Shown here piece after piece: positions 6,123 to 64,000 of a DNA stretch of 64,000 nucleotides (the stretch's first letter is position 1; the number at the start of each line of letters is the position of its first letter). A program made the position numbers and the translations under genes. The stretch is from Zeus faber (lineage: Eukaryota > Chordata > Actinopteri > Zeiformes > Zeidae): positions 33,778,236 through 33,842,235 of the forward strand of contig OY482849.1 of assembly GCA_960531495.1 (NCBI GenBank), given 5' to 3'. The notes beneath the pieces are model-generated. The model made no database searches and had not been told where the DNA came from. It saw only the letters and a list, made by a program, of their open reading frames with translations.

Positions 6123-6586
6123 TGTAGTTTAGTTTCTTGATGGGTGTGATGTGTTGAAGAATGAAGGAGTGACCGCTGTCACTGACTTGAATAAGATAAT
6201 AGTTTTATTACACAAATCAGCATCAAACCAGACTTGCCATGGATGTCCTGGGAGAGACCCGAGCCGGATGGAATCTCTGCCAAGTGACGCTCTGCACTCG
6301 CTTTTAAAGCGGTACAAAGATAACATACCACATCTGGTTCCAATCGATAGGTGCCGCTCAGCCTATATCCTGTCCTAAATGTAAACCTTTCCTCCTCTGG
6401 TCGAGCTGGAAGAATCAACAAAATTCCTCTCCCATAGGACCTCTCAATAGACCCATTGTTGTTTTCGTTCTTCGTATGACATCGAGGCAATAAATCTAAT
6501 ACTAACATAGTTAATATTATGACCGCACTATATCTCAGCTTTGGGAGCTCAGTAACCTATTCACCTCAAACCTTCCAGACACCTCA
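6123..6586 (-). repeat. 3' LTR of the endogenous retrovirus
   Basis: On the minus strand it starts TGAGGTGTCTGG and ends ...AAACTACA. It is 464 bp and matches 22781-23244 with about three differences by eye. The adjoining polypurine tract on its inner side identifies it as the 3' LTR. Confidence 0.93.
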
Positions 6587-6599
6587 TATTCCCCCCTTC
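6587..6599 (-). other. Polypurine tract of the retrovirus
   Basis: On the minus strand GAAGGGGGGAATA lies directly against the start of the 3' LTR (TGAGG...). This is where plus-strand DNA synthesis is primed in retroviruses. Confidence 0.85.
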
Positions 6600-7590
6600 G
6601 AGACTACACAAAGTCTCGACAGAGAGAAGAGTAATTGAACATACGATGTTGATTGGCTTAACAGAAATCACTTAATAACAAACACAATTGGTTATAATAT
6701 ACCCCTCTGACCATGCTTTGTCATAGCAATACAGAAAATTTGTGGAGTGTGAGAGCGAAAAACCCATCTGGCAGCTTCATTTCTTAGAACATCCATCAAT
6801 CAATCAAGACAGGAAAATTCTCTCACGGTCCCTCTGCCCCAGGCAACCACCTAAGGTACTCCAAATCAATTAACAGAAAAAAACGAAGGGTTTAGACTTC
6901 TGTATAGGATGTTACATATGAATGCATACATTAAGAGCCTCAGAAATAAATCAAAAAATTTGTCCAAAGTCAGGCTGGTCGACCCATCGGACCTTCCAGT
7001 GGACCTTTCCCTGCCTAGCACCAATGTCCCTCAAAAACCGCAAAAAAAAGAAAATACCTGAGGTCCCAATGTATTCACTTCATCCTACTACAGACAACTC
7101 AAAGAAAACAATAGCAAATCAAAGTAATATGTCTTGCTAAAAATATCTAGCGTAGAGTACAGGATATTCATCAATAATACAGGTTACATTGTAGTAAACA
7201 AACTCCAATATTATAAAAACATTCAGGACACACATGTATGTATTAAACTGTTGCTTTTTAACACCATCAACTTTTAATGATATTTCACTCGACACTCCTG
7301 ATCATGATGTCTTCATTCAGGGTCCGCCGTCCATTTTCGAGTGTCCATGTTTGAATGTTCAAGTCCATTAGGCAGTTAGGATCTCTGGACACAGCCATCC
7401 TCTGACTGGTCCTGAAAGAAAGAATCACCAGCCAGTATCTTGCACAAACATCAAATACAGTATAATAATTTCACTTTTGCATTATACTTTAACATTATTC
7501 CAACATATGATTAACTTTTTCCTTTCCCCCCTTTGTCCATGTATTTCCCTTGTTAACAATAGTGTTGAGTAAATGATGGAATCAGATATT
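6600..7590 (-). other. Retroviral 3' non-coding region
   Basis: About 1 kb between the second copy of the env tail and the polypurine tract. I see no long open frame and no match to the rest of the element. It may hold 3' UTR signals, but none can be named. Confidence 0.6.
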
Positions 7591-7672
7591 CAAAATGGGT
7601 ATTTCTCTGCTAGTGTTAGCTCCTCCTTTATCACTATTTCCTCCTCATCTTCCCCGACGTCCTTACCACCCA
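7591..7672 (-). repeat. 82-bp copy of the env tail (partner 10073-10154)
   Basis: From 'caaaatgggtatttctctgc' to 'ccttaccaccca', this block repeats 10073-10154 in direct orientation. It codes for the end of the acidic Env cytoplasmic tail (...LTLAEKYPF). Together the two copies bracket the duplicated leader segment. Confidence 0.9.
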
Positions 7673-10058
7673 GTGTGACATACATTATCAGCTTTTTATT
7701 TTGCGCACACTTGAAATAAAGCAATGGTTACTTTTAATCATGCAATGCATTTAAAGTCCAAAGAGTATATTAGTCAATCTGATATCACCTTTAATTAGTT
7801 ATTTTTATTCTATTTATCTATTTATTTTTATTTTATTTAATTATTTTTATTCTATTTATCTATTTAATTGTATTTTATCCTTTTTATTCTTTCTTCTAAC
7901 TACTGAGAGAAAAGAGTAGAGAGGGGGCTCACCAGCCCCTCTTGTCAGGAGGAGTTAACTAAATTCCACTCTTGTGTGAAGCACCACCCCTTGCTCCACC
8001 TCTTATGTTTAGCAAAGACTTCCAGTATGGACTGGTCGTCAGCGAGTGAACATCCTGTTTTGGCTCCCGTAGGGACAGCCCAGCTCAATGCAGTTACACG
8101 CACTCGTAAATCAAAGCTGTTTTCTCTCAGCAGTCGAAACACAAAACCTCTTTTCTTGCATCAAGAACCAGAGTCTCCCTTCACCCCAACAAGACCATCT
8201 GCTCTTTTAAGCAGACAGGATTCACAGAAATCACCACCACACACACCCCAAGCACAAAAAGAAAAAGAAAAACCCACACGCCAATCAAACAAATCACAAA
8301 TCCCACTTCCAATTCAGAGCAGGAGATTTTCTTTTCTTTTCTGGATGTGTACATGTATGTGTAGGCAGACTGTGGCTCTAGTCCTTCAGAAGGCTCATTT
8401 TGTTATCAAATATATAAAGTCCTGTAAAGGTTCATATCCTTTATCAAATGCACAAACGTCCTTGGAAAAAAGGCTCATATATATTTATCAAAAGTCCTTA
8501 AAGAAAGGCTCATATATTTTTATCAAAAGTCCTTAAACAGGCTCATATATGTTTATCAACTTTACAAAGTCCGTATACAGGCTCATATATATTTATCACT
8601 AAAGGGGCAAGAAATGTTTTTCTTTATGTATTATTCAACTGCTCACCACATATATATACCTATTTAATAACACATATATTCTATATCACATACACATGCA
8701 CAAAACATTACACAAAGCTCTTCTACCTCTGCAGCCGCGGCACTTTCACACTCACACACACAAAAAGAAAAAAAGAAAAAGGTATGTCTGACCAGCAGAA
8801 CATCTAATCCCCCAGAGACTTTAACAGCGCTTAGCTTTATGTTTTAGGTCGACTCATTTATACTTTTCTAATTTCATCAAAATTTTCACTTTGGCCAGAC
8901 TTTTAAAATTTTACTTTGGCCACACTTTTAACAAATTCTTTTTAATCAGATTCTCTCATCATGCATGTTCACTAGTTCTCCAGAGCAGGTTCTGCCCTGT
9001 TTTTCCTCACTTTTCTTTACAAACTTTATTTTTTCATCTTTTGAGCCTTTAACTTGTAACTGTTTTTATTTCACTTTATCCTTTTCATCTTACTTTAGCT
9101 CAATCTTTATTTTTCATCTTTATCCTTTAACTTGTAACTCTTTTTATTTGACTTTATCTTTTTCATCTCACTTTAGGCTTTTAACTTTTATCTCTTTTTC
9201 ACTTTTCATCTTACTTTAGGCTTTTAACTTTTATCTCTGTTTCACTTTTCATATTTTTCATCTTACTTTTAGGCTTTTAACTTTTATCTCTTTTTTCACT
9301 TTACTTTCTTCTTTTTCATCTTTATTCATATAATTTTATTTTGAGTCAATTCCCCTGGCCAGGGTTATTTCCTCTTGTTTTTTCCTACCTAGATTTGACT
9401 ATATTATATCTTCATTCGGCCAACTTTCACACAGCATTTAATGTACACATGTCTTACTGTTTAACGAGATACGGGCCCTGTCTTCGTTTATCTTGCATGG
9501 TTATTTAAATAACTTTTGGCTACTAGTTCTGCCATTCTACAATTACTTTTTATTTCTACTTTCTCAACATCTTTTAAGCCTTTAACTTTTACTTTTAACT
9601 TCATTTTTCATTTCTCTCATCCCTATTCTCTATTTCAACTTTTAACTTTTAGCTTTTATTTCTCTCATCTCTATTCTCTATTTCAACTCTTAACTTTTAT
9701 TTCTCTCGTCTCTATTCTCTATTTCAACTTTTAACCTTTAACTTTTATTTCTCTCGTCTCTATTCTCTATTTCAACTTAATTCTCTTTTTCTTCACTTAT
9801 TATTCTCTTATTCCCCTTATTTACGTCTTTTACATCTTAATTAACCCCAATTTAGACGGAAACTCACTTCACACATCAACACATCATCTCCATCCCCGCA
9901 TAATCTCAGTGTAGTCTCCCTGCCAAAAACATACTGCTCCAGCCCACATAACAGCTCAATTTTGTGAGAGGTCACTCACCCTGAGAGCGGCAGTTCGCTG
10001 GAGCAGGCAGCATCGGCAGATGAGGCCCAACAGATCCTGTTCGTGACGCCACTTTGTA
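7671..10058 (-). repeat. Second copy of the retroviral 5' leader, including a primer-binding site
   Basis: These 2388 bp match 20396-22783 almost base for base; I see about three differences. At 10058 the copy ends in the last bases of the LTR, followed on the minus strand by the primer-binding site. At 7671 it ends inside the leader, about 0.8 kb before gag. It is therefore a leader segment copied to the 3' side of env, not an LTR. At its right junction a short palindrome, GAAATACCC...GGGTATTTC (10063-10087), suggests strand switching during DNA synthesis. Confidence 0.9.
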
Positions 10059-12969
10059 CTTTGAAATACCCACAAAATGGGTATTTCTCTGCTAGTGTTA
10101 GCTCCTCCTTTATCACTATTTCCTCCTCATCTTCCCCGACGTCCTTACCACCCAAGAGTGGCATCTGTACACTTTCTCCCGGCATTACAACTCCTACCCA
10201 TCTCAATATCATGGCCTTAGCAAAGGTCAACACCACCGTACAAAAACAAAACATCACACACAGTGATAAAAGAGCAGCTCCCATAACCTGAGCTACTATA
10301 GCTCCTAATGGTCCTAATTTGTCTTGCAGCCAAGCATTAGCTGACCACCCAGCTCCTTTTGATGGCCCAAACGCATCCCTTATATGTTTTAACGCATCTA
10401 TGATGTTAGTCATATTGTCAGAGCCATCAGGAATCAACGTATAACAGTCATCTCCGGTTAGATTTAAAGCCACGCAAAGGCCACCTTGTTTGGCCAAAAT
10501 ATAATCAAGAGCCATGTCGTGTTTCATCAACGTCAATCGATGACTCCTCTGTGCGTTTGACAAATAATCAAAACCTCTTATGGTCTCATTTGCAAACCCT
10601 TGTAGAGTATACGTGATATTATCAATATGATCAGCTAAGAATGTAACCCCGTACCATGGAAACAATCCTATAGCCCATTTTTCTCCTAAAGATATACTCC
10701 AATGATAAGACTCCAAATTTTGAAATTGTGCCAACTCTCTTTTCTTCCTACTTTTGGCAGTCTTTGCAGAATCACCCTCATCTGTCTTTTGTCCCTTCTG
10801 AAGGACAAAAACATCATAAGGAAGTTTCAACTGTGCCATATAGCAACATCCAGTCCATCCATACGGCAGAAATAAGTATGCTTTATCTCCACATACCCAC
10901 CAAATATCTTTGAATGTTCCTATAGTCACATCACCCGGTAAAGTTTGATTCTTTACGCTCAATGTTTTACTGTGACGACTATTTGGCGCATGAAAGGTCA
11001 CTCTATAAATTTCACCAGTTGTTCTTTCTATACCTTTTCCAAATTCCATCATGTAGATTTCACATTCTGATATCCCCATAAACATACCATCTCCTTCATG
11101 AGTGTCATTAGAACAAAAGCAGTCCATACCTTTTGCAGGTGTCACTTCCATCGCTTCAGGTGTTGCTGTTCTAATATCTTCATACTTATCAAGAAGATTT
11201 AAATATGGCAATTCTCTCAACCAGGAACACTTACGTTCAGGTCTAAATAGCTTAACCGACAGAGCCATCCATACATCATTGGCTGCTTTTTGTCTGAATA
11301 GCAGCCACGATAATGCATTACTTTGACATTCAGACGTCAAAGGTTCCGGTACTGTCTCTAGAATTGATGGCCATGTGCCCGGAGCTGGAACTTTCACTAC
11401 ACACGGACAATTGGAATTAGTAGTTATTCTAACGGAGTGAGTTATCTGTTGGAACCACAGATTTCTCTTAGCCCATGGGTCTGTTATTTGCATCGCCGAG
11501 GAATCAAACCCATATGCTTTCCACTGGGTTTCTCGCTTCTTTAAAGCATGAAGATGATCAGTCATGTCTTCTGATGTCCACTCAGGTTCAAGAAAATCAT
11601 TGACCACTTTTGTCATCGTCATCTGAGCTTTTTCTCCTGAATTACTATCAATCTCCTCAGCAATTGGCTCTCTAATTACAGAGCTCTCCTTGCTATTATT
11701 TAACTTAATTTCCAACTTCGCCATAGTCTTCTGAGTTATATTTATCCACTTCTCAGATGATGGGGATGTAGCGACAGTTGTCAGTGTCTTATCTACAGAC
11801 ATTTTAGATACCAAAGAAGTCATCAGTGTTTTATAGGTGGTGGATCTCATCCTCACAACCTCTCTTGTATGATTACCGAGAGTTACAGAAGTAGAAGTTG
11901 TCATCATCGTAGTAGTAACATCATTTTCTGCCAATGTTGGGGCTAGAGTGGTAACTGACAATGATACGTTAATACTACTAGTTATTCCCCGAGCTAAGGA
12001 AGTAGATGTCCTTGGTCCAACAGTCACCCTTGGTGTGACTAGTTGTTTTTGGGTTTCATTAGCAATCATGCTTACTTCTTTAGTAACCAGACCTTTTACT
12101 ACCAGCATTATCTTACCAGTTCTGTATCCCGCTTCCCAATAATTTTGTCTTGGGACGTATTTAAACTCTGGATCCAAATATGTGCATGTATATTCTCCTT
12201 GATCTTCCCATAGTACATTATGTACTACTAGTGAACAGTCATTTTTAACTTTAACCCCTCTCCTGTCATTCATCAACACAAACTTTCGTTGATTGCTAGG
12301 CACACTGCTAACCTCAGGTACTGCTAGCACTATGTCTTCACCGCGCGCATTTTTCCATTTGGGGGAGATATTTCCACCAGTATTCCATTTACTACATTTA
12401 CATGGAAGGTTAGCTGTATTTCCTAATTTAGTTCTAATCACAGTATTCACTGAAATTGAAGTTGTTGGAATCATCTGAGGCACAGCAGTAGTTAACTGCA
12501 ATTCCTCTGTAACATTGGTGAGTTTCAAACCTAACAAGGCAGACGTCTGCTTTGTCTCTTCAGTTGGTGGGGGAGTTGATACTTCAGTTATTAATTTTCC
12601 TATTTCTTCAAAAACTGTGGGCTCTACAATTTTACTTTCATTCAAAACCACAAGAGTCACAATTTTATATCTGTAGTCAGGCTTTCTTTGCACTCCATCC
12701 TCTCTCACAATCACAAATTTAGGATCAAAATAAGAACACTTGTAGTCTCCTTGATCTTCAATCTGGGGTCTACGTAGATAAAGACTACAGTCATCCTTCA
12801 TCTTCAGCCTTCTTCGATCATTTAGCAACACATACTTCTGTAGCGGTGACGTTCCCGACAAGTCAATTACCTTCCCATGGTTATCTTCCCACTGGACTTG
12901 AACTTCCCCTTTTTCATAATTTTCTTTGGTACACTGACATGGCAGCTGAACTGACTTTCCCAAAATCAC
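9976..12969 (-). CDS. env: Retroviral Env with two N-terminal Ig V-like domains
   Basis: A 997-residue envelope frame. Residues 1-110 and 176-292 are two tandem Ig V-like domains. Each has LPC-x-C, a core Trp, NDRR, K-(D/N)-DCSL and the hallmark EDQG(D/E)Y-x-C, followed by a DP-x-F segment. Residues 295-430 are Ser/Thr-rich and mucin-like with many N-x-S/T sites. The SU-like part (about 470-740) has CPC, CFC and a W-V-CG...LPYGW-x-GCCY block like other fish retroviral envelopes. SRKKR (740-744) is a furin-type site. TM follows with GGLCVALNLTGDDC (829-842), like the immunosuppressive loop and paired cysteines of gamma-type TM, a membrane span at about 889-917 and an acidic tail. No signal peptide is visible at the first Met. 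Retroviral env mRNA is normally spliced, so the true start may lie upstream. The last 30 or so residues come from the adjoining leader copy. Confidence 0.9.
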   Translation of the reverse strand: MILGKSVQLPCQCTKENYEKGEVQVQWEDNHGKVIDLSGTSPLQKYVLLNDRRRLKMKDDCSLYLRRPQIEDQGDYKCSYFDPKFVIVREDGVQRKPDYRYKIVTLVVLNESKIVEPTVFEEIGKLITEVSTPPPTEETKQTSALLGLKLTNVTEELQLTTAVPQMIPTTSISVNTVIRTKLGNTANLPCKCSKWNTGGNISPKWKNARGEDIVLAVPEVSSVPSNQRKFVLMNDRRGVKVKNDCSLVVHNVLWEDQGEYTCTYLDPEFKYVPRQNYWEAGYRTGKIMLVVKGLVTKEVSMIANETQKQLVTPRVTVGPRTSTSLARGITSSINVSLSVTTLAPTLAENDVTTTMMTTSTSVTLGNHTREVVRMRSTTYKTLMTSLVSKMSVDKTLTTVATSPSSEKWINITQKTMAKLEIKLNNSKESSVIREPIAEEIDSNSGEKAQMTMTKVVNDFLEPEWTSEDMTDHLHALKKRETQWKAYGFDSSAMQITDPWAKRNLWFQQITHSVRITTNSNCPCVVKVPAPGTWPSILETVPEPLTSECQSNALSWLLFRQKAANDVWMALSVKLFRPERKCSWLRELPYLNLLDKYEDIRTATPEAMEVTPAKGMDCFCSNDTHEGDGMFMGISECEIYMMEFGKGIERTTGEIYRVTFHAPNSRHSKTLSVKNQTLPGDVTIGTFKDIWWVCGDKAYLFLPYGWTGCCYMAQLKLPYDVFVLQKGQKTDEGDSAKTAKSRKKRELAQFQNLESYHWSISLGEKWAIGLFPWYGVTFLADHIDNITYTLQGFANETIRGFDYLSNAQRSHRLTLMKHDMALDYILAKQGGLCVALNLTGDDCYTLIPDGSDNMTNIIDALKHIRDAFGPSKGAGWSANAWLQDKLGPLGAIVAQVMGAALLSLCVMFCFCTVVLTFAKAMILRWVGVVMPGESVQMPLLGGKDVGEDEEEIVIKEELTLAEKYPFCGYFKVQSGVTNRICWASSADAACSSELPLSG
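12094..12969 (-). other. Tandem Ig V-like domains of Env
   Basis: The two domains share the same unusual set of cysteines (C-x-C near the first strand, a DCSL cysteine and the Y-x-C cysteine) and the same RR/K-rich segment, so they arose by internal duplication of one domain. In vertebrates this layout belongs to immune-type or butyrophilin/CD-like V-set receptors. Capture from a host receptor is my inference. Confidence 0.8.
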
Positions 12970-12976
12970 TTCAACT

Positions 12977-13333
12977 CTAGTCCTCGTATCGTTTTGCTTT
13001 TAACCCTTTTTCGAGATTGTCTTGGACTCCTGGGTCCAACTGGGTTGGTACACTTTCCTGGAGAGGTGTCACAGCCCTCTGGAGTCTTTGACAATTCATT
13101 TTCTCTGGGATTAGACTCTGTTGTGTCTGGGACATGTTGTAAATCAATGTCCCTGAAGTGTCTTTCTTGCTCAGGGACTGACAATTCATCCCTGGGATCA
13201 TCAAAAGTGTGCTCATCAACATTAAGCACACCCACATCATCGCCAATCCCTTCTTCTGGGTCTTGACCTCTGAGGTCCTCATGAACCTCTGTTGTTTCAG
13301 CAGCTTCTGTTGGCTCTCTTGAGCTTTCAACAT
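12977..13333 (-). other. Short frame with a signal-peptide-like segment, overlapping the 3' end of pol
   Basis: This 118-codon frame overlaps the integrase tail in another frame. It holds MMWVCLMLMSTLLMIPGMNC, a hydrophobic core with the look of a signal peptide and cleavage site. In many retroviruses the env leader region overlaps the end of pol, so its position fits that role. No link to the env frame is asserted here. Confidence 0.45.
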
Positions 13334-16300
13334 TTCTGCTCAGGGATCGTTGCGCCTCTTCGTTTGGCGCTCTAACACAATGCGATAAATGGTACCATGT
13401 AGGAGAACCTTCAACCTGAACCGCAGTTCCTGTACTGCGAACAACTTTGAATGGTCCTTCGCGGCGTTCGTTAAACCATTTCCTCCTAAACACTTTCACG
13501 AATACCTTGTCTCCAGGTTGCACCGCGTTCCTCTTTTGCTCATCAAGTCTCTCTAACACCTCCTCTTGTTTTTGCCTGTCAGAGACATATGTGTGTATTT
13601 TCTTATGCAGTGTAGCCATGTAGTTAACATACACTCGCATTTCATCTTCTAAAAGGGCTAAGCTTGGACCCTTTCCACTTGTGCGCAAACATGGTGTTGG
13701 CATCCGTCTACCCGTGGCTAACTCATGGGGTGTCATGCGCAAATCACGGAGCCCACTTGAACGGCACACCATTAATGCCAACGGAAGCGCCTCTACCCAA
13801 TTCAGACCTGTGTGCTGACAGATTTTAACAATGCGATTTTTCAGCACACCATTCATTTTTTCACAAACTCCTTGGCTTTGTGGATGATAAACAGCTCCTA
13901 AACGTTGTTTAATTCCCAATTTTTGCAGAATTAATTTTACTGTTCTATCCACGAACTCTTTCCCATTATCTGAGGATATCCGATCTGGAAGTCCCCACCT
14001 GCTTATGACCTCACGACACAAGAACTTGGCAACCGACTGAGCATCTTTACGCTTGGTTGGACATGCCTCAGGCCACCGTGAAAATCTATCCACGACGACT
14101 AGCATGTATCTTTTACCTCCTATTGGTCTTATCATGTCAACAAAATCCACAACCAACTCACGCATAGGACCTGTCGGAGTTGGAATGTGACCAGGTGGAC
14201 TCAACACACCCCTCCGAACGTTATTTTTAAGACAGATTGTGCATCTGCCTATGACATAATCAATTTGCTCAAGCAAGTACGGTGCCCAAAAACCATACTC
14301 TTTCGTGATCTTTCTCCTTACCTCCCCCCTTGCAACATGGGCTAACCCATGTGCTTCCTGAATCATCAGACCTAGTAGGTCAGGGGGTGCTACCATCAGT
14401 CCTTCATGATTTCTCCACAGACCAGTAGAATCTTCTGTGGCCCCTCGGGCCAACCATAATTGTTTATCGATGGCTGACGCCGCCTCTTGCATCGCGATCA
14501 CATCTCTGAGCGTGATTTTATCTTCCAAGTCCACTTCATGAGTGACCAGAAGAACCTTGCCTGCTTTGTTTGCTCCTGTAACTGCTTTAGCAGCCTCATC
14601 AGCCGCTTTGTTACCTTGTGTGACCCTTGACGTGTCCATTTTGTGTGCTGCACACTTAGCTACAGCTATTTCCTTTGGTTTCATCATTGCATGCAACAAT
14701 TTCATTATTTGGGCATGATGCTGTATCGGAGAACCATCGGTTTTCTTAAATCCTCGATTTTTCCATACTGATCCAAATAAATGACACACATTATGTGCAT
14801 ATGCCGAATCTGTATATATTGTCACTCGCTTGCCTTCGGCCAATAGACAAGCTTCAGTCAGGCCCACAAGCTCAGCAAGCTGTGCAGAAGCAGGTTGTGG
14901 TATTACTTCTGCTTTCTCAACAACAAATTCAGTTCCCTGGGCTTTGACTACTGCATAACCAGCACTCAATGTGTCTCCTATTCGATAGCAGGACCCGTCA
15001 GTCCAATACTCCACATCTGACACATGAAGTGGGAAAGCTTGCAAGTCTGATCTGAGCTTTGCATATCTCTCTACTTCCTGAATACAATCATGTGGCTCTC
15101 CATCCCCTGGTGTTGGTAAATTATCAGCTGGATTTACCGTGACGCACCTTACTAAGGTGACATCTTCCTGCTCTAAGAGCCTATGATAGTCTCTTAGCCT
15201 AGACATAGTCAATGTACATTTACCGAAGTTCAAAAGATTTCTGAGACTATGATGGGTAAGAATTGTCACTGGGTAACCCATAGTTACTGATGATGCTTTC
15301 TCATACATTAGATAAACTCCCACCATTGCTCTGTAGCACAGTGGTAGCCCCGATTCTACTTCTGAATAGGCAGTAGAATAATACGACACAGGTTGAGGAC
15401 TTGTCCCTGTACCTGTTGGCTGACAAATAACTGCACATGCATATTTGCCTCCAGTGGACGTGGCCACATACAGCAAAAAGTTCTTAGAGTAGTCTGGCAG
15501 CGCTAGCGCTGGAGCTTCTTGTAGCCTCTGTTTGATCGTTTCAAATGCCATAAGACCTTACTGGGTCCAGGTGAGGTTACAATGGAGTTGAGCATTCCCA
15601 GTCTCTTTTATCATGGCTCTCAAAGGTCCTGTTAGGCAGGCATAATCTTCTACCCAGGCTGAAGAATATCCCGCAATGCCAAGAAATGTCATCATCTCTC
15701 TGACTGTTCTAGGCTTTGGTGCCGTTCGAATGGCTTCCAAATGACTCTCAGAGATGCTTCTGTGTCCATGGGTTATTGTTTGACCCAAATAAACAACTTT
15801 TTCTTGACAATACTGTAGCTTCTTCTGAGAGGCCTTGTGACCTTTGTCTGCCAATTGCTGTAACAGTTTGATTGAATCCTCATGGCATGTTTCCTTATCC
15901 GGTGAGCAGATGACGATGTCGTCCACATACTGAATGACAGTACTTTTCAAGATCTGATCAATTCCAGCCAAGTCATCCTGCAATACTTTATTGAAAATGT
16001 GAGGGCTGTGTTTGAATCCTTGAGGGAGCCTCTTGTACTTGAAGGTTTGTCCTTTGTACGTGAACCCAAACAATCCTTGACTTTCTTCGCTCAGTGGAAC
16101 ACTGAAAAATGCTCCACACAAATCCAACACTGTGAAGTGTGTAGCCTCTGGAGGGATTTGGGCTAACAAGGTATGTGGATCTGGTACATCTGCTGGAAAA
16201 TCCTGCACCACTTCATTTATCGCTCTTAAATCATGTACCAAGCGATAGGACTCATCTGGTTTCTTTAAAGGCAATATAGGTGTATTGCTCTGAGGATCCA

Positions 16301-16583
16301 AACATATTTCCACTACACCTGCTTTTAACAGTCCTTCAATTTGTGGTTCAATCCCTTTGATTACCTCCTCCTTTAGTGGATATTGGTTCTTCCAAGGAGG
16401 TTTGGTTCCTGGTCTCAGTTCAACTCTCACCGGTTGGGCTGACTTCACAAGTCCGATGTCCGTACTATGTCGTGACCACAAACATTCTGGAATTTGTTGC
16501 AGCATCTCCTCTCTCATGCTGTCTGAGTCCAATTTAGCGCTGAACATTGACTCATGTGTCATCTGTATCACTTGTGGTTGTCC

Positions 16584-17042
16584 TTGTCCTTGAGCTGAAA
16601 TCATGATTTTCATGAACTTCTGTTCTTCACTTATCCAGATAGCAAGATTCTCCTTTATTGGTGAAAAAATGGCTTCCTCAGCTTCTGCCATCATTTCTCC
16701 TATTTGCTTCTGCTCAAATCCTTCAGCCACCATTAAAGTCACATGTGGCACACTTTTCACAATGTCAAACTCTTTCTCAAGATATTCATTGATGTTTATC
16801 TTCATAGCTGCTCCTTGTGGTCCCACAATTATGCAGCATGAGGTCAGCTGAACATGCTTCGGTTGACTACTCAACCATTCTTCTGGATCCAATTGGTCAG
16901 TTTTCTTGAAATATTTCAACGTGCAGTGATGTGGATACTCAGGGGGCTTAGCATCAGGCATATTTGCCACAATGAACTTCTCCCACATCTTGGCTGGCTC
17001 TAATAGCTCTGGACTAAGATTTCCAATCCAATATACTGAAGA
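16584..17042 (-). other. CNPase-like 2H phosphoesterase domain inside Pol
   Basis: About 155 residues between protease and RT do not belong to either. They hold two H-x-T-L motifs, HHCTLKYF and PHVTLMVAEG, 61 residues apart, the signature of the 2H phosphoesterase superfamily (LigT, AKAP7, CNPase, viral 2',5'-PDEs). The order of elements follows the C-terminal catalytic domain of vertebrate CNPase as I remember it: YW-x-G and an amphipathic helix, HCT-x-K-(Y/F), a strand like LTSCCIIVGPQGAAMKIN (CNPase: LTISALFVTPKTTGARVEL), H-(V/I)-TL plus a helix, then a strand pair ending near FMKIMISA (CNPase: RWMLTLAKN). Both His and both Thr positions are kept. Family enzymes cleave cyclic phosphates or 2',5' linkages; the substrate here is unknown. 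Confidence 0.78.
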
Positions 17043-17465
17043 AGTCTCGGTCTCTGGTGCGCTAAATAATTGGTGGTAGACATCAGGTGGCACATCCACC
17101 AGACAGCCGTCCGGTGTACACCGTATTGTGCAATTTAGTTTGCACATAGCATCTCTTCCCAAGAGTGCAATGGGCGTATGTTCTGACACCAAAATAGGTA
17201 GTGTGATTTTCCGATTTCTACAGCAGAGCTCAATTGGTTTTGTGAGAGGAATCAGCTGTTTCACACCCTCAAACCCGATTGTCCGTACCAATTGGACAGA
17301 CATGGGGAGATGTATAGCATCTTCAGGCCGAACACAGGTGAAAGCTGCTCCGCAATCTGCCATTACTTCCAATGACTTATCATTTATTTTCACCTCTATT
17401 TTTGGATCTTGCTCCGGCCCTGATACTACCAGCTGACACCTCCCTTTCGAGTCTTCTGGGCACCC

Positions 17466-19598
17466 CTAGAAACCAGGTTCCGGACCCCTGTAAGGGTTCG
17501 CTGGTCCTCTGGGTGGCTGTGGTTGTCCTCTGTAGCCTCCTTTGAAGCCTCCTCTGAAGCCTCCTCTGAAGCCTCCTCTGAACCTGTAGCAGTCACGTAC
17601 AAAATGACCTTGTTGTCCACAATTATGACACGCTCCTTGAGACTGTTGGAAATTTCCTCCTCTTCCTCTTCCTAAATTTCCTTGGCCTCTTCCTCTCCAT
17701 GTTTGTGGTTGGTCAAAAACTGGCTGTGGAAAGGAGACAGTGGGGACCACAGGTGGTAGAACCTGAATCTGTTCTTGCTGTGGTTGTGGTGGTACTTGAT
17801 TTGATTGTGACTGGCTCTGCATAACCACAGCTTGTTTCTTTTCCTTCTTCTTGTTATCCACCAACTGTATTTGGTTGAGTTTTCTGAGAGTCTCCTGGTC
17901 CTGTTCCTTCTGGTCATGCTCCTTTTTCCGATATAGCTCTACTTGATGTGCTATGTGGTCCGTATAAACACTTTTGGTCATGTTTCCAAGACCAACCACT
18001 TTGGCCAATTTGCTCCTCACTTGTAGAGGCAGCCCCTTCTGTATTTTAGCTCGGAGAATCGATTTCTCCATTTGATTCAGTTCTGGATCATTTCCTGTGA
18101 CATTTCTCCACACTTGATGAGTTCTTGACACATAAGCTCTTGGATTTTCCTGTGGGCCCAATGCCTCGATCAAGATGTTGTCCGGGTGTACGTTTGTTGG
18201 AAAAGCATCTTTCAATGCTCTCCACATTCGACCTCTGCTTGCAGCAAACAATTCTGGGTCATATACAGCAGTTGCCACGTATCTGTTAAGGCCTGCCGTC
18301 TGCAGGATCTCTTCCATAGCTGGGACTCCAATGAGGCTAGCCAGAAGTCTCTTAATATCTCCCATGGCAGGCTGTGTTCCCACCAAAACCTCTTCCAGCT
18401 TTGAGATCCATGGATGTGCTCCATCTTGAAGAGTGGGTAACTTTTCAAGTATGTTAGACATATCTGTATTCTGCCAAGGCTTGTATTCTAAATTTTGTCC
18501 TCGAATTATCACTGGACACATTTTGTTGGGTCTCTTTCCTTTTCTTGGACGTAACCCATACCTCAACGTGTCTGGCTTTTGAGGCTTTTTCTTCTGGAGT
18601 TTCTTCTCTGTTATTTGCAATTCGTGTAATTGCCTTTCCAATACTTGTTGAACTTCTGGACAGGTGGAGTCACTTATGTCCTCCAGGCATCTGTCTATAC
18701 TCCTCTCAATCTCTCTTAAAATCATGCGTCTGTCATCTCCTACCACAGTGCTGGCTGCTAATGGTTGAAAACAGGAAGGACCTTCTTTCTCCGATTCTTC
18801 ATCGCTTTCACCCTGTTCACTTTCATCCGTGTCGTCCGTTCCTGGTGACATTTTCCTCACTGGTCGATCTCCCTTTTTCTCTGCTTTAGCCAACATCCGT
18901 CTGACTGCTGGGTCATATCCTCCAATAGCTTCGTCAGAGTCACTCCCAATCTTTTCTCCTATTTCCAGACTTCTGACTCGTTGTTGGCTTCCCAGACGGT
19001 TCCTTCTCTTGGTATTGTTGGAGCTTGGATACATCTTTATGGTTGTTGTAGCCTTGCCCATTTCTATTATTTGCTCATCTTCATCTTTGCAGAGATAGTT
19101 GCCTTCCTGTGTAATCACTGGGAGCTGGGGATAAACATCAGTAAACTTCACCTCCTTCTCATAAGGCGGGGGCTTCTGTAAAGATGCTGTATGTGAGAAG
19201 GGCGTGGTAATCTTCTCCATCAATTTTTCTGTCTCCTTTTCATTCTTCTTTATTTCTTGTCTACTTTGTTCTCTTTTTTCCTTTGCAGCTTCGAACCATG
19301 TCTGTCCCTCCTTTGCAAACAGTTGCAGAACGCCAAGTTCTGTTTGTCTTTTCTCCGTGCGTCTCTTTCCTTTCTTGCCTTTCTTTTGATTTACTTTATA
19401 TGTGGACACAAGCACCTGCATTGTTTTAATCACATCCGGGTTAAGAGTTCCTTCAACTGGCCATGGTTGTTCAATGTCCGGCCAACGCTTGCTCCATTTT
19501 CCTGATATTTTTGCAATATCTTTAATAAGGGGATTGTTCTTTTGCACTACATCAATAGGAGTGATTACTTTTGTAATTTTAGTATCCATTTTTGACAT
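17466..19598 (-). CDS. gag: Retroviral Gag polyprotein
   Basis: 710 residues starting [10 protein letters not shown]; no N-terminal Met-Gly, so no classical myristoylation signal. Residues 70-130 are highly charged and coiled-coil-like. PPPY (143-146) is a late-budding motif, with YPQL nearby. An acidic Ser/Glu stretch (about 220-270) precedes a capsid-like part (about 375-560) with a segment like [20 protein letters not shown] Gln-rich linker (about 570-640) leads to one CCHC zinc knuckle, [14 protein letters not shown] (657-670), and an RGG-type tail ([15 protein letters not shown]). The knuckle packages RNA, and the RGG tail probably adds non-specific RNA binding. It ends at an amber codon with pol next in frame. 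Confidence 0.92.
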
Positions 19599-22500
19599 CC
19601 TAATGACTCTCTTATTTTCTTTTATTGTAAATCAAATTGAATTATTATAAAAATGTCTTTATAAAGCACCGTGTAATCACACTCAACCAACAACAGCTGA
19701 ATTTGCCAACCCCAAAGGAGACCAATCGCTTCCCACTTGTGAAAGCCAATTCACTTGTTCACCATCTGATGCATCTGATCACACTCATTTATGTTCAATT
19801 ATCAAAATTACATCAGTGTTCATTCTCAAAACAGCATAGATAAATCATACCCAGATAATGAAATCAATATTCACCGAACAGTATTTAAATCAAATCAGCT
19901 TTTCCATATGTGATCAATCAATTAATCAATAATACTCCATTAATTAGGCAAATGCCTTAATTGGTCAGTCTGTTGCCAAGTCTCTCACTAAATAATTGCA
20001 AATGCAATGTATGAAAAAGAACTACTACAAACGCATATGTGAAGACAAGCTAAACACATTTATTATAACTAATATTTATAGGTATATAGGTAAATGCAGG
20101 TGAGGTCTGTTGAAAGAGTTTGTGGATAAAACCGTACTGGCCTTTAATTGGTTTGGATGGATTCAGGATTCCAGAACGTTGTCATCCGCAAGCCTCAGTG
20201 TCTGTGAAGATCTGCCAGATGTCTTGTCATCTGCCCTATGGATGATTCAGTTCAGACTCATTCCATCTTTTCTGTCTTTCCCCAGCTTTCACTCAGCATA
20301 GTAAAAGAGAGGAAGAAAGAAAAAAGAAAAAGAACAACAGAAGAGTTCAATGCCTTAGGCTCACTCTAAATTCTTATACACACTGTAATACAATTCAGTG
20401 TGACATACATTATCAGCTTTTTATTTTGCGCACACTTGAAATAAAGCAATGGTTACTTTTAATCATGCAATGCATTTAAAGTCCAAAGAGTATATTAGTC
20501 AATCTGATATCACCTTTAATTAGTTATTTTTATTCTATTTATCTATTTATTTTTATTTTATTTAATTATTTTTATTCTATTTATCTATTTAATTGTATTT
20601 TATCCTTTTTATTCTTTCTTCTAACTACTGAGAGAAAAGAGTAGAGAGGGGGCTCACCAGCCCCTCTTGTCAGGAGGAGTTAACTAAATTCCACTCTTGT
20701 GTGAAGCACCACCCCTTGCTCCACCTCTTATGTTTAGCAAAGACTTCCAGTATGGACTGGTCGTCAGCGAGTGAACATCCTGTTTTGGCTCCCGTAGGGA
20801 CAGCCCAGCTCAATGCAGTTACACGCACTCGTAAATCAAAGCTGTTTTCTCTCAGCAGTCGAAACACAAAACCTCTTTTCTTGCATCAAGAACCAGAGTC
20901 TCCCTTCACCCCAACAAGACCATCTGCTCTTTTAAGCAGACAGGATTCACAGAAATCACCACCACACACACCCCAAGCACAAAAAGAAAAAGAAAAACCC
21001 ACACGCCAATCAAACAAATCACAAATCCCACTTCCAATTCAGAGCAGGAGATTTTCTTTTCTTTTCTGGATGTGTACATGTATGTGTAGGCAGACTGTGG
21101 CTCTAGTCCTTCAGAAGGCTCATTTTGTTATCAACTATATAAAGTCCTGTAAAGGTTCATATCCTTTATCAAATGCACAAACGTCCTTGGAAAAAAGGCT
21201 CATATATATTTATCAAAAGTCCTTAAAGAAAGGCTCATATATTTTTATCAAAAGTCCTTAAACAGGCTCATATATGTTTATCAACTTTACAAAGTCCGTA
21301 TACAGGCTCATATATATTTATCACTAAAGGGGCAAGAAATGTTTTTCTTTATGTATTATTCAACTGCTCACCACATATATATACCTATTTAATAACACAT
21401 ATATTCTATATCACATACACATGCACAAAACATTACACAAAGCTCTTCTACCTCTGCAGCCGCGGCACTTTCACACTCACACACACAAAAAGAAAAAAAG
21501 AAAAAGGTATGTCTGACCAGCAGAACATCTAATCCCCCAGAGACTTTAACAGCGCTTAGCTTTATGTTTTAGGTCGACTCATTTATACTTTTCTAATTTC
21601 ATCAAAATTTTCACTTTGGCCAGACTTTTAAAATTTTACTTTGGCCACACTTTTAACAAATTCTTTTTAATCAGATTCTCTCATCATGCATGTTCACTAG
21701 TTCTCCAGAGCAGGTTCTGCCCTGTTTTTCCTCACTTTTCTTTACAAACTTTATTTTTTCATCTTTTGAGCCTTTAACTTGTAACTGTTTTTATTTCACT
21801 TTATCCTTTTCATCTTACTTTAGCTCAATCTTTATTTTTCATCTTTATCCTTTAACTTGTAACTCTTTTTATTTGACTTTATCTTTTTCATCTCACTTTA
21901 GGCTTTTAACTTTTATCTCTTTTTCACTTTTCATCTTACTTTAGGCTTTTAACTTTTATCTCTGTTTCACTTTTCATATTTTTCATCTTACTTTTAGGCT
22001 TTTAACTTTTATCTCTTTTTTCACTTTACTTTCTTCTTTTTCATCTTTATTCATATAATTTTATTTTGAGTCAATTCCCCTGGCCAGGGTTATTTCCTCT
22101 TGTTTTTTCCTATCTAGATTTGACTATATTATATCTTCATTCGGCCAACTTTCACACAGCATTTAATGTACACATGTCTTACTGTTTAACGAGATACGGG
22201 CCCTGTCTTCGTTTATCTTGCATGGTTATTTAAATAACTTTTGGCTACTAGTTCTGCCATTCTACAATTACTTTTTATTTCTACTTTCTCAACATCTTTT
22301 AAGCCTTTAACTTTTACTTTTAACTTCATTTTTCATTTCTCTCATCCCTATTCTCTATTTCAACTTTTAACTTTTAGCTTTTATTTCTCTCATCTCTATT
22401 CTCTATTTCAACTCTTAACTTTTATTTCTCTCGTCTCTATTCTCTATTTCAACTTTTAACCTTTAACTTTTATTTCTCTCGTCTCTATTCTCTATTTCAA

Positions 22501-22780
22501 CTTAATTCTCTTTTTCTTCACTTATTATTCTCTTATTCCCCTTATTTACGTCTTTTACATCTTAATTAACCCCAATTTAGACGGAAACTCACTTCACACA
22601 TCAACACATCATCTCCATCCCCGCATAATCTCAGTGTAGTCTCCCTGCCAAAAACATACTGCTCCTAGCCCACATAACAGCTCAATTTTGTGAGAGGTCA
22701 CTCACCCTGAGAGCGGCAGTTCGCTGGAGCAGGCAGCATCGGCAGATGAGGCCCAACAGATCCTGTTCGTGACGCCACTT
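19599..22780 (-). other. 3.2-kb retroviral 5' leader
   Basis: The stretch from the LTR to the gag start is far longer than the few hundred bases usual in retroviruses. On the sense strand the middle third is strongly purine-rich, built from degenerate repeats such as 'aaaagttaaaagcctaaagt' and 'gagatgaaaagtg'. Short frames occur, for example 20670-20867, but none has a recognised domain and the frame is not kept in the related leader at 61.5-64 kb. 20396-22783 is duplicated at 7671-10058. Confidence 0.8.
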
Positions 22781-22783
22781 TGT
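20396..22783 (-). repeat. Original copy of the duplicated leader segment
   Basis: Matches 7671-10058 with about three visible differences. This copy lies in its natural place between the 5' LTR and gag, so it is the likely source of the other. Confidence 0.9.
22760..22777 (-). other. Primer-binding site
   Basis: On the minus strand TGGCGTCACGAACAGGAT begins three bases after the CA end of the 5' LTR. It would pair with the 3' end of a tRNA with discriminator G (...CGTGACGCCA). The tRNA species cannot be named with certainty; Arg or Ser are possible. The same site is present in the duplicated leader near 10037-10054. Confidence 0.75.
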
Positions 22784-22861
22784 AGTTTAGTTTCTTGATG
22801 GGTGTGATGTGTTGAAGAATGAAGGAGTGACCGCTGACACTGACTTGAATAAAATAATAGT

Positions 22862-22867
22862 TTTATT
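22862..22867 (-). promoter_or_regulatory. LTR polyadenylation signal AATAAA
   Basis: AATAAA on the minus strand downstream of the TATA-like box. The corresponding site is also present in the 3' LTR, where it would end the viral transcript. Confidence 0.55.
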
Positions 22868-22958
22868 ACATAAATCAGCATCAAACCAGACTTGCCATGG
22901 ATGTCCTGGGAGAGACCCGAGCCGGATGGAATCTCTGCCAAGTGACGCTCTGCACTCG

Positions 22959-22966
22959 CTTTTAAA
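22959..22966 (-). promoter_or_regulatory. LTR TATA-like box
   Basis: TTTAAAAG on the minus strand (context CGCTTTAAAAGCG). It is about 95 bp upstream of a poly(A) signal, the spacing expected for a U3/R junction in this LTR. Confidence 0.55.
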
Positions 22967-23261
22967 GCGGTACAAAGATAACATACCACATCTGGTTCCA
23001 ATCGATAGGTGCCGCTCAGCCTATATCCTGTCCTAAATGTAAACCTTTCCTCCTCTGGTCGAGCTGGAAGAATCAACAAAATTCCTCTCCCATAGGACCT
23101 CTCAATAGACCCATTGTTGTTTTCGTTCTTCGTATGACATCGAGGCAATAAATCTAATACTAACATAGTTAATATTATGACCGCACTATATCTCAGCTTT
23201 GGGAGCTCAGTAACCTATTCACCTCAAACCTTCCAGACACCTCACCTACCTGGTGTTTATT

Positions 23262-24204: not shown

Positions 24205-25590
24205 GTGTCTACTCTTGCTCTACTCTACTCTACTTTACTCTTACTCTACTCTACTTTACTCTACTCTCCTCTACTCTACTCTTACTCTAATCTACCTCTA
24301 CCTCTTCTGTAACTCCACTCTACCTCTATCTCTGCTCTAATCTGCTCCACTCTGCTGCACTCTGCTCCACTCTACCTCTACTCTACTATATTCTTCTGTA
24401 CCTCTACCTCTACCTACCCCGCTCTGTTCAGCTCTGCTCTACCTCTGCTCTACTATATTCTTCCCTACCCCTACCTCTACTCAACCTCTACTCTTACTCC
24501 ACTGTACTCTACTCTCACTCCACTGTATGCTTCCCCAACTCCACTGTACTCTACTCTAACGCCACTCTACTCTGCTCCACTCCACTCTACTCTACCTCGA
24601 CTCTAACTCCAGTGTTATCTACTCTAACTCCACTCTGCTCTACTCTACTCTACTCTACTCTACTCTACTATACCTCTACTCTACCTCTACTCTACTCTAC
24701 CTCTACTCTACTATACTCTACCTCTAACTCTACTCTGCTCTACTCTGCTCCACTCTGCTCTACCTCTACTCTACAATATTCTTCCTCCATCTACCTCTAC
24801 TCTAACTCCACTGTACTCTACTCTACCTCCACTCTACTAGACTCTACCTCCACTCTAACTTCACTCTGACTCCATTATACTCTACTCTACCTCCACTCTA
24901 CTATATTCTTCCCAACCTCTACTCTACTCTACTCTACTCTACTCTACTCTACTCTACTCTACCTCTATTCTACTCTACTCTACTCTACTTCTACTCTACT
25001 CTACTCTAACTCCACTGTACTCTGCTCTAATGCCACTCTACTCAACTCTACCTCTACTCTAACTCCACTGTACTCTACTCTACCTCTACTCTAACTGTAT
25101 TGTACTCTACTCTAACGCCACGGTACTCTACTCGACCTCTACTCTAACTCCACTGTACTCTATTCTACCTCCACTCTACTCGACTCTACCTCCACTCTAA
25201 CTCCACTGTACCCTGCTCTACCTCTACTCTAACTCCATTGTACTCGACTCTATCTCCACTGTACTCTACTCTACCTTTACTCTAACTCCATTGTACTCTA
25301 CTCTAACTCCACGGTACTCTACTCGACTTCTACTCTAACTCCACTGTACTCTACTCTACCTCCACTCTAACTCCACTGTACCCGGCTCTACCTCTACTCT
25401 AACTCCATTGTACTCTACTCTAACTCCACTGTACTCTACTCGACTCTACGCTCACTCTACTCTACTCTACTCGACTCTACTCTCACTCTACCCTTCCTCT
25501 ACTCTAACTCCACTGTACTCTACTCTAACTCGACCCTACCATGCCTCGACTCTACTACTTATATTTCTCTACACTACCACTGTAGGGAAG
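24205..25590. repeat. Degenerate (TCTAC)n array, about 1.4 kb
   Basis: Nearly every base belongs to runs of ctcta/ctctg pentamers with variants such as 'taactccactgtactctac', which recur as a higher-order unit. Frames in this stretch (YSTLLYST-type) are products of the 5-bp period and not genes. Confidence 0.9.
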
Positions 25591-61320: not shown

Positions 61321-64000
61321 TGAGGTGTCTTGGAATGTGTGTTGTCCCAAGACGCTAAGAGACGGTGCTGGAGGTCCGGAGAGAGAGAGCACATCACCAG
61401 AGGTCCTGGTGATAAGGGAAGTGAAATGTGACCTGTGACCTATGTAAGGGAACCAAATGGTAAATGTTGTCTGTGGGCAGGCATAAAAGAGCCTGCCCGA
61501 GTCTGCCCGATTATTTTACTCAAGTCAGCGCCAGCAGTCACTCCTTCTTCATCAGGGGATGGAGATGATGTGTTGATGTGTGAAGTGAGTTTCCGTCTAA
61601 ATTGGGGTGATATCCGTAAGTTGTAAAAGATGTAAATAAGGGGAATAAGAGAATAATGAACAAAGAAAGAGAGAATTAAGTTGAAATAGAGAATAGAGAC
61701 GAGAGAAATATAAGATGAAGTTAAAAATAAAAGATAAAGGCTTAAAAGATGTGGAAAAAGTAGATGTAAAAAGTAATTGTAGAATGGCAGAATTCGTAGC
61801 CAAAAGTTTTTTAAATAACCATGCAAGATTAATGGAGACAGGGCCCGTATCTCCTTAAAAAGTAAGACGTGTACATTAAATGCTGCATGAAAGTTGGCCG
61901 AATGAAAATATAATATAGTCAAATCTAGGTAGGAAAAAAGAAGAGGAAATAACCCTGGCCAGGGGAATTGACTCAAAATAAAATCATATGAATGAAGATG
62001 AAAAAGATGAAAAGTGAAAAAGAGATAAAAGTTAAAAGTCTGAAGTAAGATGAAATAGATGAAAAATGAAGCAAAAAGAGTTACAAGTTAAAGGCTTAAA
62101 AGATGAAAAATAAAGTTTGAGAAAAAATGGGGAAAAGCAGGGCTAAACCAGCCTAAAAGAATGGATGCACATCGAACATGCATGCTGAAAGCACCTGATT
62201 AAAAGGATTATTTCTTAAAAGTCTGGCCAAAGTGAAAATCTTGGTGAAATTAGAAAAGTATACATGAGTCGACGTTTAAGTATAAAGTCAAGCGCTGTTG
62301 AAGTTTTTGGAGAATCTGAATCTGAATCTGTGTTGCCGGTCAAACATGTCTTTTTCCTTTTGGGGTGTGAGTGTGCCTGTGTGTGTGTGTGTGAGAGTGT
62401 GCCCCGGCTAAAGAGGTGTGAAGAGATTTGTGTATTGTTTGTGTATATGTATAAAGGATATATAGAATACATGGGTTATTAAATAGGTATACATATGTGG
62501 TGAGCAGTTAAATAATACATAAAATAAACATTTCTTGCCCCTTTAGTGATAAATATATATGAGCCTATTTATGGAATTTGTAAAGCTGATAATAAAGATT
62601 ATGAGCCTTTCTTAAAGGACGTTTGATAAATATATATGAGCCTTTTTTTAAGGAATTTTTTATAAATATATATGAGCCTTTTTCTTTAAAGGACGTTTGA
62701 TAAATATATATGAGCATTTTTCTTTCAACGACGTTTTATACATTTGATAAAGGATATGAACCTTCACAGGACTTTATATATTTGATAACAAAATGAGCCT
62801 TCTTGAGAGAAGGACTAGAATCACCAGAGACAGTCTGCCTACACATGCATGTACACATTCAGAAAAGAAAAGAGAATCTCCTGCTCTTAATTATGGGTAG
62901 GATTTGTGGATTGTTTGGTTGGTGTGTGAGTTTTTTCTCTTTGTGCTTGGAGTGTGTGACAGTGCTTGCTGTGAGTTCTGTTGGTTAAAGGAGCCGATAG
63001 TATTGGTGAAATAGAAGGAAAAGCTGGGTTTTTGATGCAAGAGAAGAGGTTTTGTGTTTCGGCTGCTGAGTGCAAGGAATCAGCTTTGATTTATGACTGT
63101 GCGTAACTACATTAGACTGTGCTGTTCAGACGGGGAGCTAAATCAGGATGTTCGCTCGCTGACGACCAGAGCCAACTGGAAGGTGTGACTAAATTTAAGA
63201 GGTGGAGCAACGGGTGGTGCTTCATAGATGGTGCTCGATTGACTAATATACTCTTTAGATTTAAATGCGTCGTATGAATAAAAGTAAACATTGCTTTATT
63301 TCAAATACGCGAGAAATAAAAAGGCTGATAAAGTATGTCTCATTGAATTGTATTATAGTATGTATAAGAATTTAGAGTGATCTTAAGACACTAAACACTT
63401 GTGTGGTTCTTTTTTTTTTTCTTTCTTCCTCTCTTTTGCTTTGCTGAGTGAGAGCTGGGAGAACGACAGAGAAGATGCGATGTGTCTGAATTGGATCATC
63501 CAAGGGGCAGATGACAAGATATCTGGCAGTTCTTCACAGCCACTGGGAGCTTGCGGATGAGACCGAATAAGAATTCTGAATCAAGTTGAATAAGGCCAGT
63601 ACGGTTTATCTACTTACGGTTAACTCTTTTCAAGGCACCTGCATTTACCTATATGTGCGTACATCTAGTTATAACCTACATGATTGCTTGTTCTCACATA
63701 TGGGATTTCAGTAGTTGTTTTTCTTATATTGTGTTTGCAATTAGTTAGTAAGAGACTTGGCAACGGACTGACTAATCAAGGCATTTGCCTAATTAATGGA
63801 GAATTATTGATTTGATTGATCACATGCGGAAAAACTGATTTGATTTAAATACGGTTGAGTGCTGTGAATATTGGTTTCATTATCTGAGTATGGTTTACCT
63901 TGATTGAGGCTGTTTTGAGAGTGAACATTGATGGGCACTTTGATAACTGAAGATAAATGAGTATGATCAGATGTATCAGATAATGAACAAGTGAAGTTGC
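61321..64000 (+). mobile_element. 5' end of a second, related endogenous retrovirus (LTR and leader)
   Basis: It starts with TGAGGTGTCTTGGAATGTG and an LTR-like stretch to about 61550 with a TATA-type 'cataaaag' and the shared 'actcaagtcagcgccagcag'. From about 61557 it follows the leader of the retrovirus at 6-23 kb (reverse complement of roughly 22625 down to 19745) through the purine-rich repeats and the motif 'gggcagatgacaagatatct'. The window ends about 150 bp before the position where gag would start. Divergence from the first element is moderate, so this copy is older or from another lineage. The visible part looks broken in one or a few places, so the copy may be incomplete. Confidence 0.85.
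61475..61498 (+). promoter_or_regulatory. TATA box inside an 8-bp inverted repeat
   Basis: GGGCAGGC, then ATAAAAGA, then GCCTGCCC. The TATA-type sequence forms the loop of a perfect stem in the LTR of the second retrovirus. Confidence 0.6.

Follow-up and report, generated by a model that had tools for sequence, protein, structure and literature searches.

A candidate CNPase-type 2H phosphoesterase domain in the Pol protein of a young endogenous retrovirus of Zeus faber

Structure of the provirus

The window analyzed in this study is a whole stretch of 64,000 nucleotides from the Zeus faber genome (GCA_960531495.1, contig OY482849.1, 33,778,236 to 33,842,235 of the forward strand), and all positions given below refer to it. 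Its minus strand carries an LTR-bounded provirus of approximately 17.1 kb (6123-23244), and an additional stretch of Pol, here called the insert, lies inside this provirus. The features found are listed in Table 1. The reading frame of gag continues past its TAG stop into pol, which is a readthrough-type layout, and the two open pieces of pol, which were searched separately for domains, are parted by an in-frame TAA. Given this TAA, the function of Pol from this copy is regarded as putative.

In a PDB search, the best match of the RT piece was chain 4hkq, RT/RNase H p80 (E 1.2e-58), followed closely by MLV RT. The active-site triad of the protease is D-C-G (17349-17357, minus strand); the usual retroviral triad is D-T/S-G. 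The gag-TAG-pol order in one frame, the MLV-type RT and integrase C-terminus, and the gamma-type fusion subunit of Env place the provirus in a gamma/epsilon-type class, within which gamma and epsilon are not separated by these features. The youth of the copy, which had been proposed in the first-pass annotation, is borne out by the LTRs, identical at 461 of 464 positions.

Table 1. Features of the provirus in the window, with the evidence for each.
Feature	Position	Strand	Basis
5' LTR, 464 bp, TG...CA	22781..23244	-	461/464 identical to 3' LTR
Primer-binding-site-like 18-mer starting TGG, three bases past 5' LTR	22760..22777	-	sequence
Leader copy 1, 2393 bp, directly past 5' LTR	20396..22788	-	99.83% identical to 7671-10062
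gag ORF, 721 aa, zinc knuckle; ends in TAG	17466..19631	-	ORF and Pfam
pol ORF, first piece, 635 aa	15558..17465	-	in frame after gag stop; ends in TAA
Retroviral aspartic protease match, RVP	17124..17390	-	20.1 bits, just below curated cut-off 20.7
CNPase-like Pol insert (candidate), 153 residues	16584..17042	-	open frame; CNPase-specific similarity
First HxT motif, HCTL	16917..16928	-	sequence; motif scan
Second HxT motif, HVTL	16734..16745	-	sequence; motif scan
Reverse transcriptase RVT_1 match, YVDD present	15774..16265	-	E 9.4e-30; sequence
pol ORF, second piece, 863 aa: RNase H, integrase, MLV-type integrase C-terminus	12966..15557	-	Pfam
env ORF, stop to stop, 1007 aa	9976..12999	-	profile and PDB matches
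Leader copy 2, within env tail	7671..10062	-	99.83% identical to leader copy 1
3' LTR, 464 bp	6123..6586	-	461/464 identical to 5' LTR

The 2.4-kb repeats were also considered as LTRs, an assignment given up once the LTRs proved to measure 464 bp; the repeat is a duplicated leader, which begins at the primer-binding-like site past the 5' LTR and has its second copy in the env tail. This duplication could be a product of template switching or an assembly artefact. A 92-bp piece of the env tail is repeated beyond the second leader copy (96.7% identical). Elsewhere in the window, positions 61555-63999 hold a diverged, oppositely oriented relative of the leader region, whose pieces are 78-91% identical and whose body leaves the window, and at 24208-25584 units resembling CTCTACTCTAC form a long, imperfect tandem array.

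The env ORF has features of its own. Near the C end of Env, a gamma-type fusion subunit was matched by filovirus-type GP2 (E 4.8e-05) and, less strongly, by syncytin-2 (E 0.0072). At the N end, there are two tandem Ig V-set-like stretches (V-set E 6.8e-14), and no ATG is present ahead of the first of them. To our knowledge, Ig domains seem unusual in retroviral Env, and these stretches may represent a second capture.

The insert in Pol and its similarity to 2H enzymes

The insert corresponds to residues 142-294 of the first pol piece and is flanked in the Pfam search by the aspartic-protease match on one side and the RT match on the other; in the PDB sequence search, the match to solved MLV-type RTs starts about 30-35 residues past it. 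Enzymes of the 2H superfamily act on cyclic or 2',5'-linked phosphates by means of two His and two Thr/Ser. The two HxT/S-h motifs typical of this superfamily are present in the insert as HCTL (residue 39) and HVTL (residue 100), with a spacing of 61 residues. The first-pass annotation had read the position between protease and RT, the spacing of the two HxTL motifs and their retention in a young copy correctly; its in-frame insert is likewise open, with a length of 153 residues. Since the provirus is young, the open frame says little on long-term selection. A tblastn search found no second copy of the insert in the 64-kb window.

For the motif pair, we searched for HxT followed by one of LIVMFYT, with two such motifs 40-120 residues apart. 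The pair occurred in 7 of 20,000 shuffles of the insert. The window has 81 open segments with a length of 100 aa or more, and one of these, the ORF of the insert, contains the pair. These chance figures overstate the evidence, because the first-pass annotation had already chosen the motif before the test.

In the database searches, no family was matched by the insert in Pfam (up to E 10), PHROGs or NCBIfam, the curated cut-off of the CNPase family profile was not reached, and the PDB sequence search gave nothing of note. Our own HMM built from four CNP/RICH chains gave only 2.6 bits. No relative of the insert was found in phage records or in GTDB contigs, and none of the 11 loci detected by an RT pattern in the GTDB contigs was similar to the RT or the insert (tblastn, E 0.01). 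In IMG/VR, neither the insert nor the RT piece had a relative; a search there with a general pattern for gamma-type RT also gave 0 stretches, so such viruses may be absent from this collection or have been left out of it.

The insert was compared directly with four CNP/RICH chains, namely human, rat and mouse CNPase and goldfish RICH (PDB 1woj, 2ilx, 9etl, 2i3e), and with a contrast set of six chains consisting of four LigT-type enzymes and two AKAP7 proteins; all chain sequences were taken from PDB search alignments. With hhalign, the insert and the CNP/RICH profile gave one alignment of 83-84 columns at 28% identity with both motifs in register. Its score of 21.4 was reached by none of 500 shuffles, albeit by a narrow margin (best shuffle 20.7), whereas the LigT score of the insert was reached by 243 of 500 shuffles and the AKAP7 score by 79 of 500, shuffles against the AKAP7 profile going up to 23.6. 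The hhalign probability for the CNP/RICH match was 3.0-3.6% (P 0.012-0.015). When both motifs were held fixed during shuffling, 10 of 500 sequences reached the CNP/RICH score (best 26.8) and one of 500 gave at least 80 columns. Overlapping 153-aa tiles of the provirus ORFs, two of which partly overlap the insert, did not reach it in any of 50 cases (best 15.2).

In the pairwise and HMMER comparisons, too, CNP/RICH came ahead of the other families. In local alignment, the scores with the CNP/RICH chains were matched by 7, 10, 70 (mouse CNP) and 24 of 1000 shuffles, and those with the six LigT/AKAP7 chains by 109-899. The CNP/RICH profile of HMMER gave the insert its 2.6 bits and the reversed insert a higher value of 4.5 bits; 11 of the 1478 shuffles scored (2000 made) reached the insert; with LigT the count was 265 of 1485 and with AKAP7 802 of 1546, so that CNP ranked above both. 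In end-gap-free alignment, 3, 0, 4 and 2 of 1000 shuffles matched or beat the four CNP/RICH chains, and 87-503 of 1000 the six contrast chains. The agreement of the four chains is not fourfold evidence, because three of them are CNPases of close mammalian kin. The CNPase-type similarity that had been proposed is supported: it is specific to the family in relation to LigT and AKAP7, but weak in size.

Two single-sequence AlphaFold2 models of the insert had mean pLDDT values of 37.7 and 33.8, the low confidence being most likely because no alignment was used. For the model with 37.7, the best Foldseek match had E 0.1, no 2H enzyme was recognized by title among the best 50 of 349 matches, and the matches carry no meaning. 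The CNPase order of strands and helices proposed in the first-pass annotation was not confirmed by these models.

Alternative readings and possible role

We put at roughly 60% the probability that this young endogenous retrovirus of gamma/epsilon type carries, as the insert in its Pol, a compact 2H phosphoesterase domain of CNPase type. The narrower statement that the insert is a CNPase-type domain is a slightly safer one and appears probable. Confidence in it is raised because an independent report of CNPase in fish retroviruses (PMC4977317) agrees with the CNPase-specific similarity.

The insert might instead be a spacer or an RT-associated extension proper to the retrovirus lineage, in which two HxTL motifs arose by chance and which is no 2H enzyme. 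The lack of a family match in Pfam, PHROGs and NCBIfam, the higher HMMER score of the reversed sequence, the hhalign probability near 3% and the low pLDDT of both models fit this explanation, but it must account for the rarity of the motif pair and for a co-linear, CNPase-specific similarity, as well as for the CNPase reported in fish retroviruses in the excerpt of PMC4977317, and we consider it unlikely. Even less probable is a 2H domain from another branch, of LigT/ThpR, AKAP7 or viral 2',5'-phosphodiesterase type: the HxT pair is common to all 2H families, yet the LigT and AKAP7 scores were at or near noise in a comparison that extended to these two families. An equally improbable reading accepts the CNPase-like domain and holds that it was kept for binding and not for catalysis, as a mimic of host CNP that might compete for CNP partners or regulate Gag assembly. 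The similarity of the insert to CNP and the binding of host CNP to HIV-1 Gag (excerpt of PMC3832489) speak for such a mimic; on the other side, a role in binding alone would not call for the two catalytic-type motifs, both of which are retained, and Gag-Pol is normally a minor product.

If the insert is a CNPase-type 2H domain, it would be made through readthrough of the gag stop and would travel in the particle with Gag-Pol, either fused to RT or cut from it. Its paired His and Thr would open 2',3'-cyclic phosphates or cut 2',5'-linked nucleotides, and the domain could serve in RNA-end processing close to reverse transcription or in weakening a defence based on nucleotide signals or RNA cleavage. 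We regard this enzymatic role as doubtful. The wider proposal is that the lineage incorporated a 2H enzyme of CNPase type into its Pol, where it lies between protease and RT and gives each particle a phosphodiesterase beside the RT. This enzyme would act early in infection, either on RNA ends or on a signal consisting of a cyclic or 2',5'-linked nucleotide, and a host antiviral gene family would have been turned to viral use. The proposal is tentative, and the odds are against it.

If the domain is active, a retrovirus would package a nucleotide phosphodiesterase alongside its reverse transcriptase. This would point either to a need of fish retroviruses for RNA-end processing or to a defence against them that relies on 2',3'-cyclic RNA ends or on nucleotide signals. 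Host CNP is interferon-stimulated, binds HIV-1 Gag and blocks assembly, according to an excerpt citing Wilson et al. 2012 (PMC3832489). Since host CNP restricts HIV-1 assembly by this account, the capture of a CNP-family sequence by a retrovirus would become a testable arms-race question.

Prior reports and known systems

The first-pass annotation knew of no retroviral Pol with this domain, and as written this needs correction: in ray-finned fishes, epsilon-like sequences occasionally have additional ORFs for CNPase or macro domain proteins, as stated in an excerpt citing Basta et al. 2009 (PMC4977317). CNPase in fish retroviruses is a known kind of finding, and the fused position in Pol between protease and RT may be new. 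Among the literature matches listed, in a search outside which most subscription papers lie, no other description of a retroviral CNPase was recognized.

Comparison with known systems gives the following picture. The teleost epsilon-like retroviral CNPase likewise is a CNPase-type sequence in a fish retrovirus; as excerpted (PMC4977317) it is encoded in additional ORFs, whereas here the stretch is fused into Pol between protease and RT, and the two positions may nevertheless agree. Host CNPase and goldfish RICH have in common with the insert an HCT-K-F/Y first motif, an H-h-T-L second motif and a similar order between them, but their PDB chains have 214-222 residues against 153, the identity is 28% over 83 columns, and the insert stays below family thresholds. 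The 2H phosphoesterases of coronaviruses and rotaviruses are also viral 2H domains with an HxT pair; these belong to RNA viruses without reverse transcription and are found in an accessory or capping-protein context. The dUTPase of other retroviruses, which has another fold and another site in the polyprotein than the insert, is likewise a host nucleotide enzyme placed inside a retroviral polyprotein.
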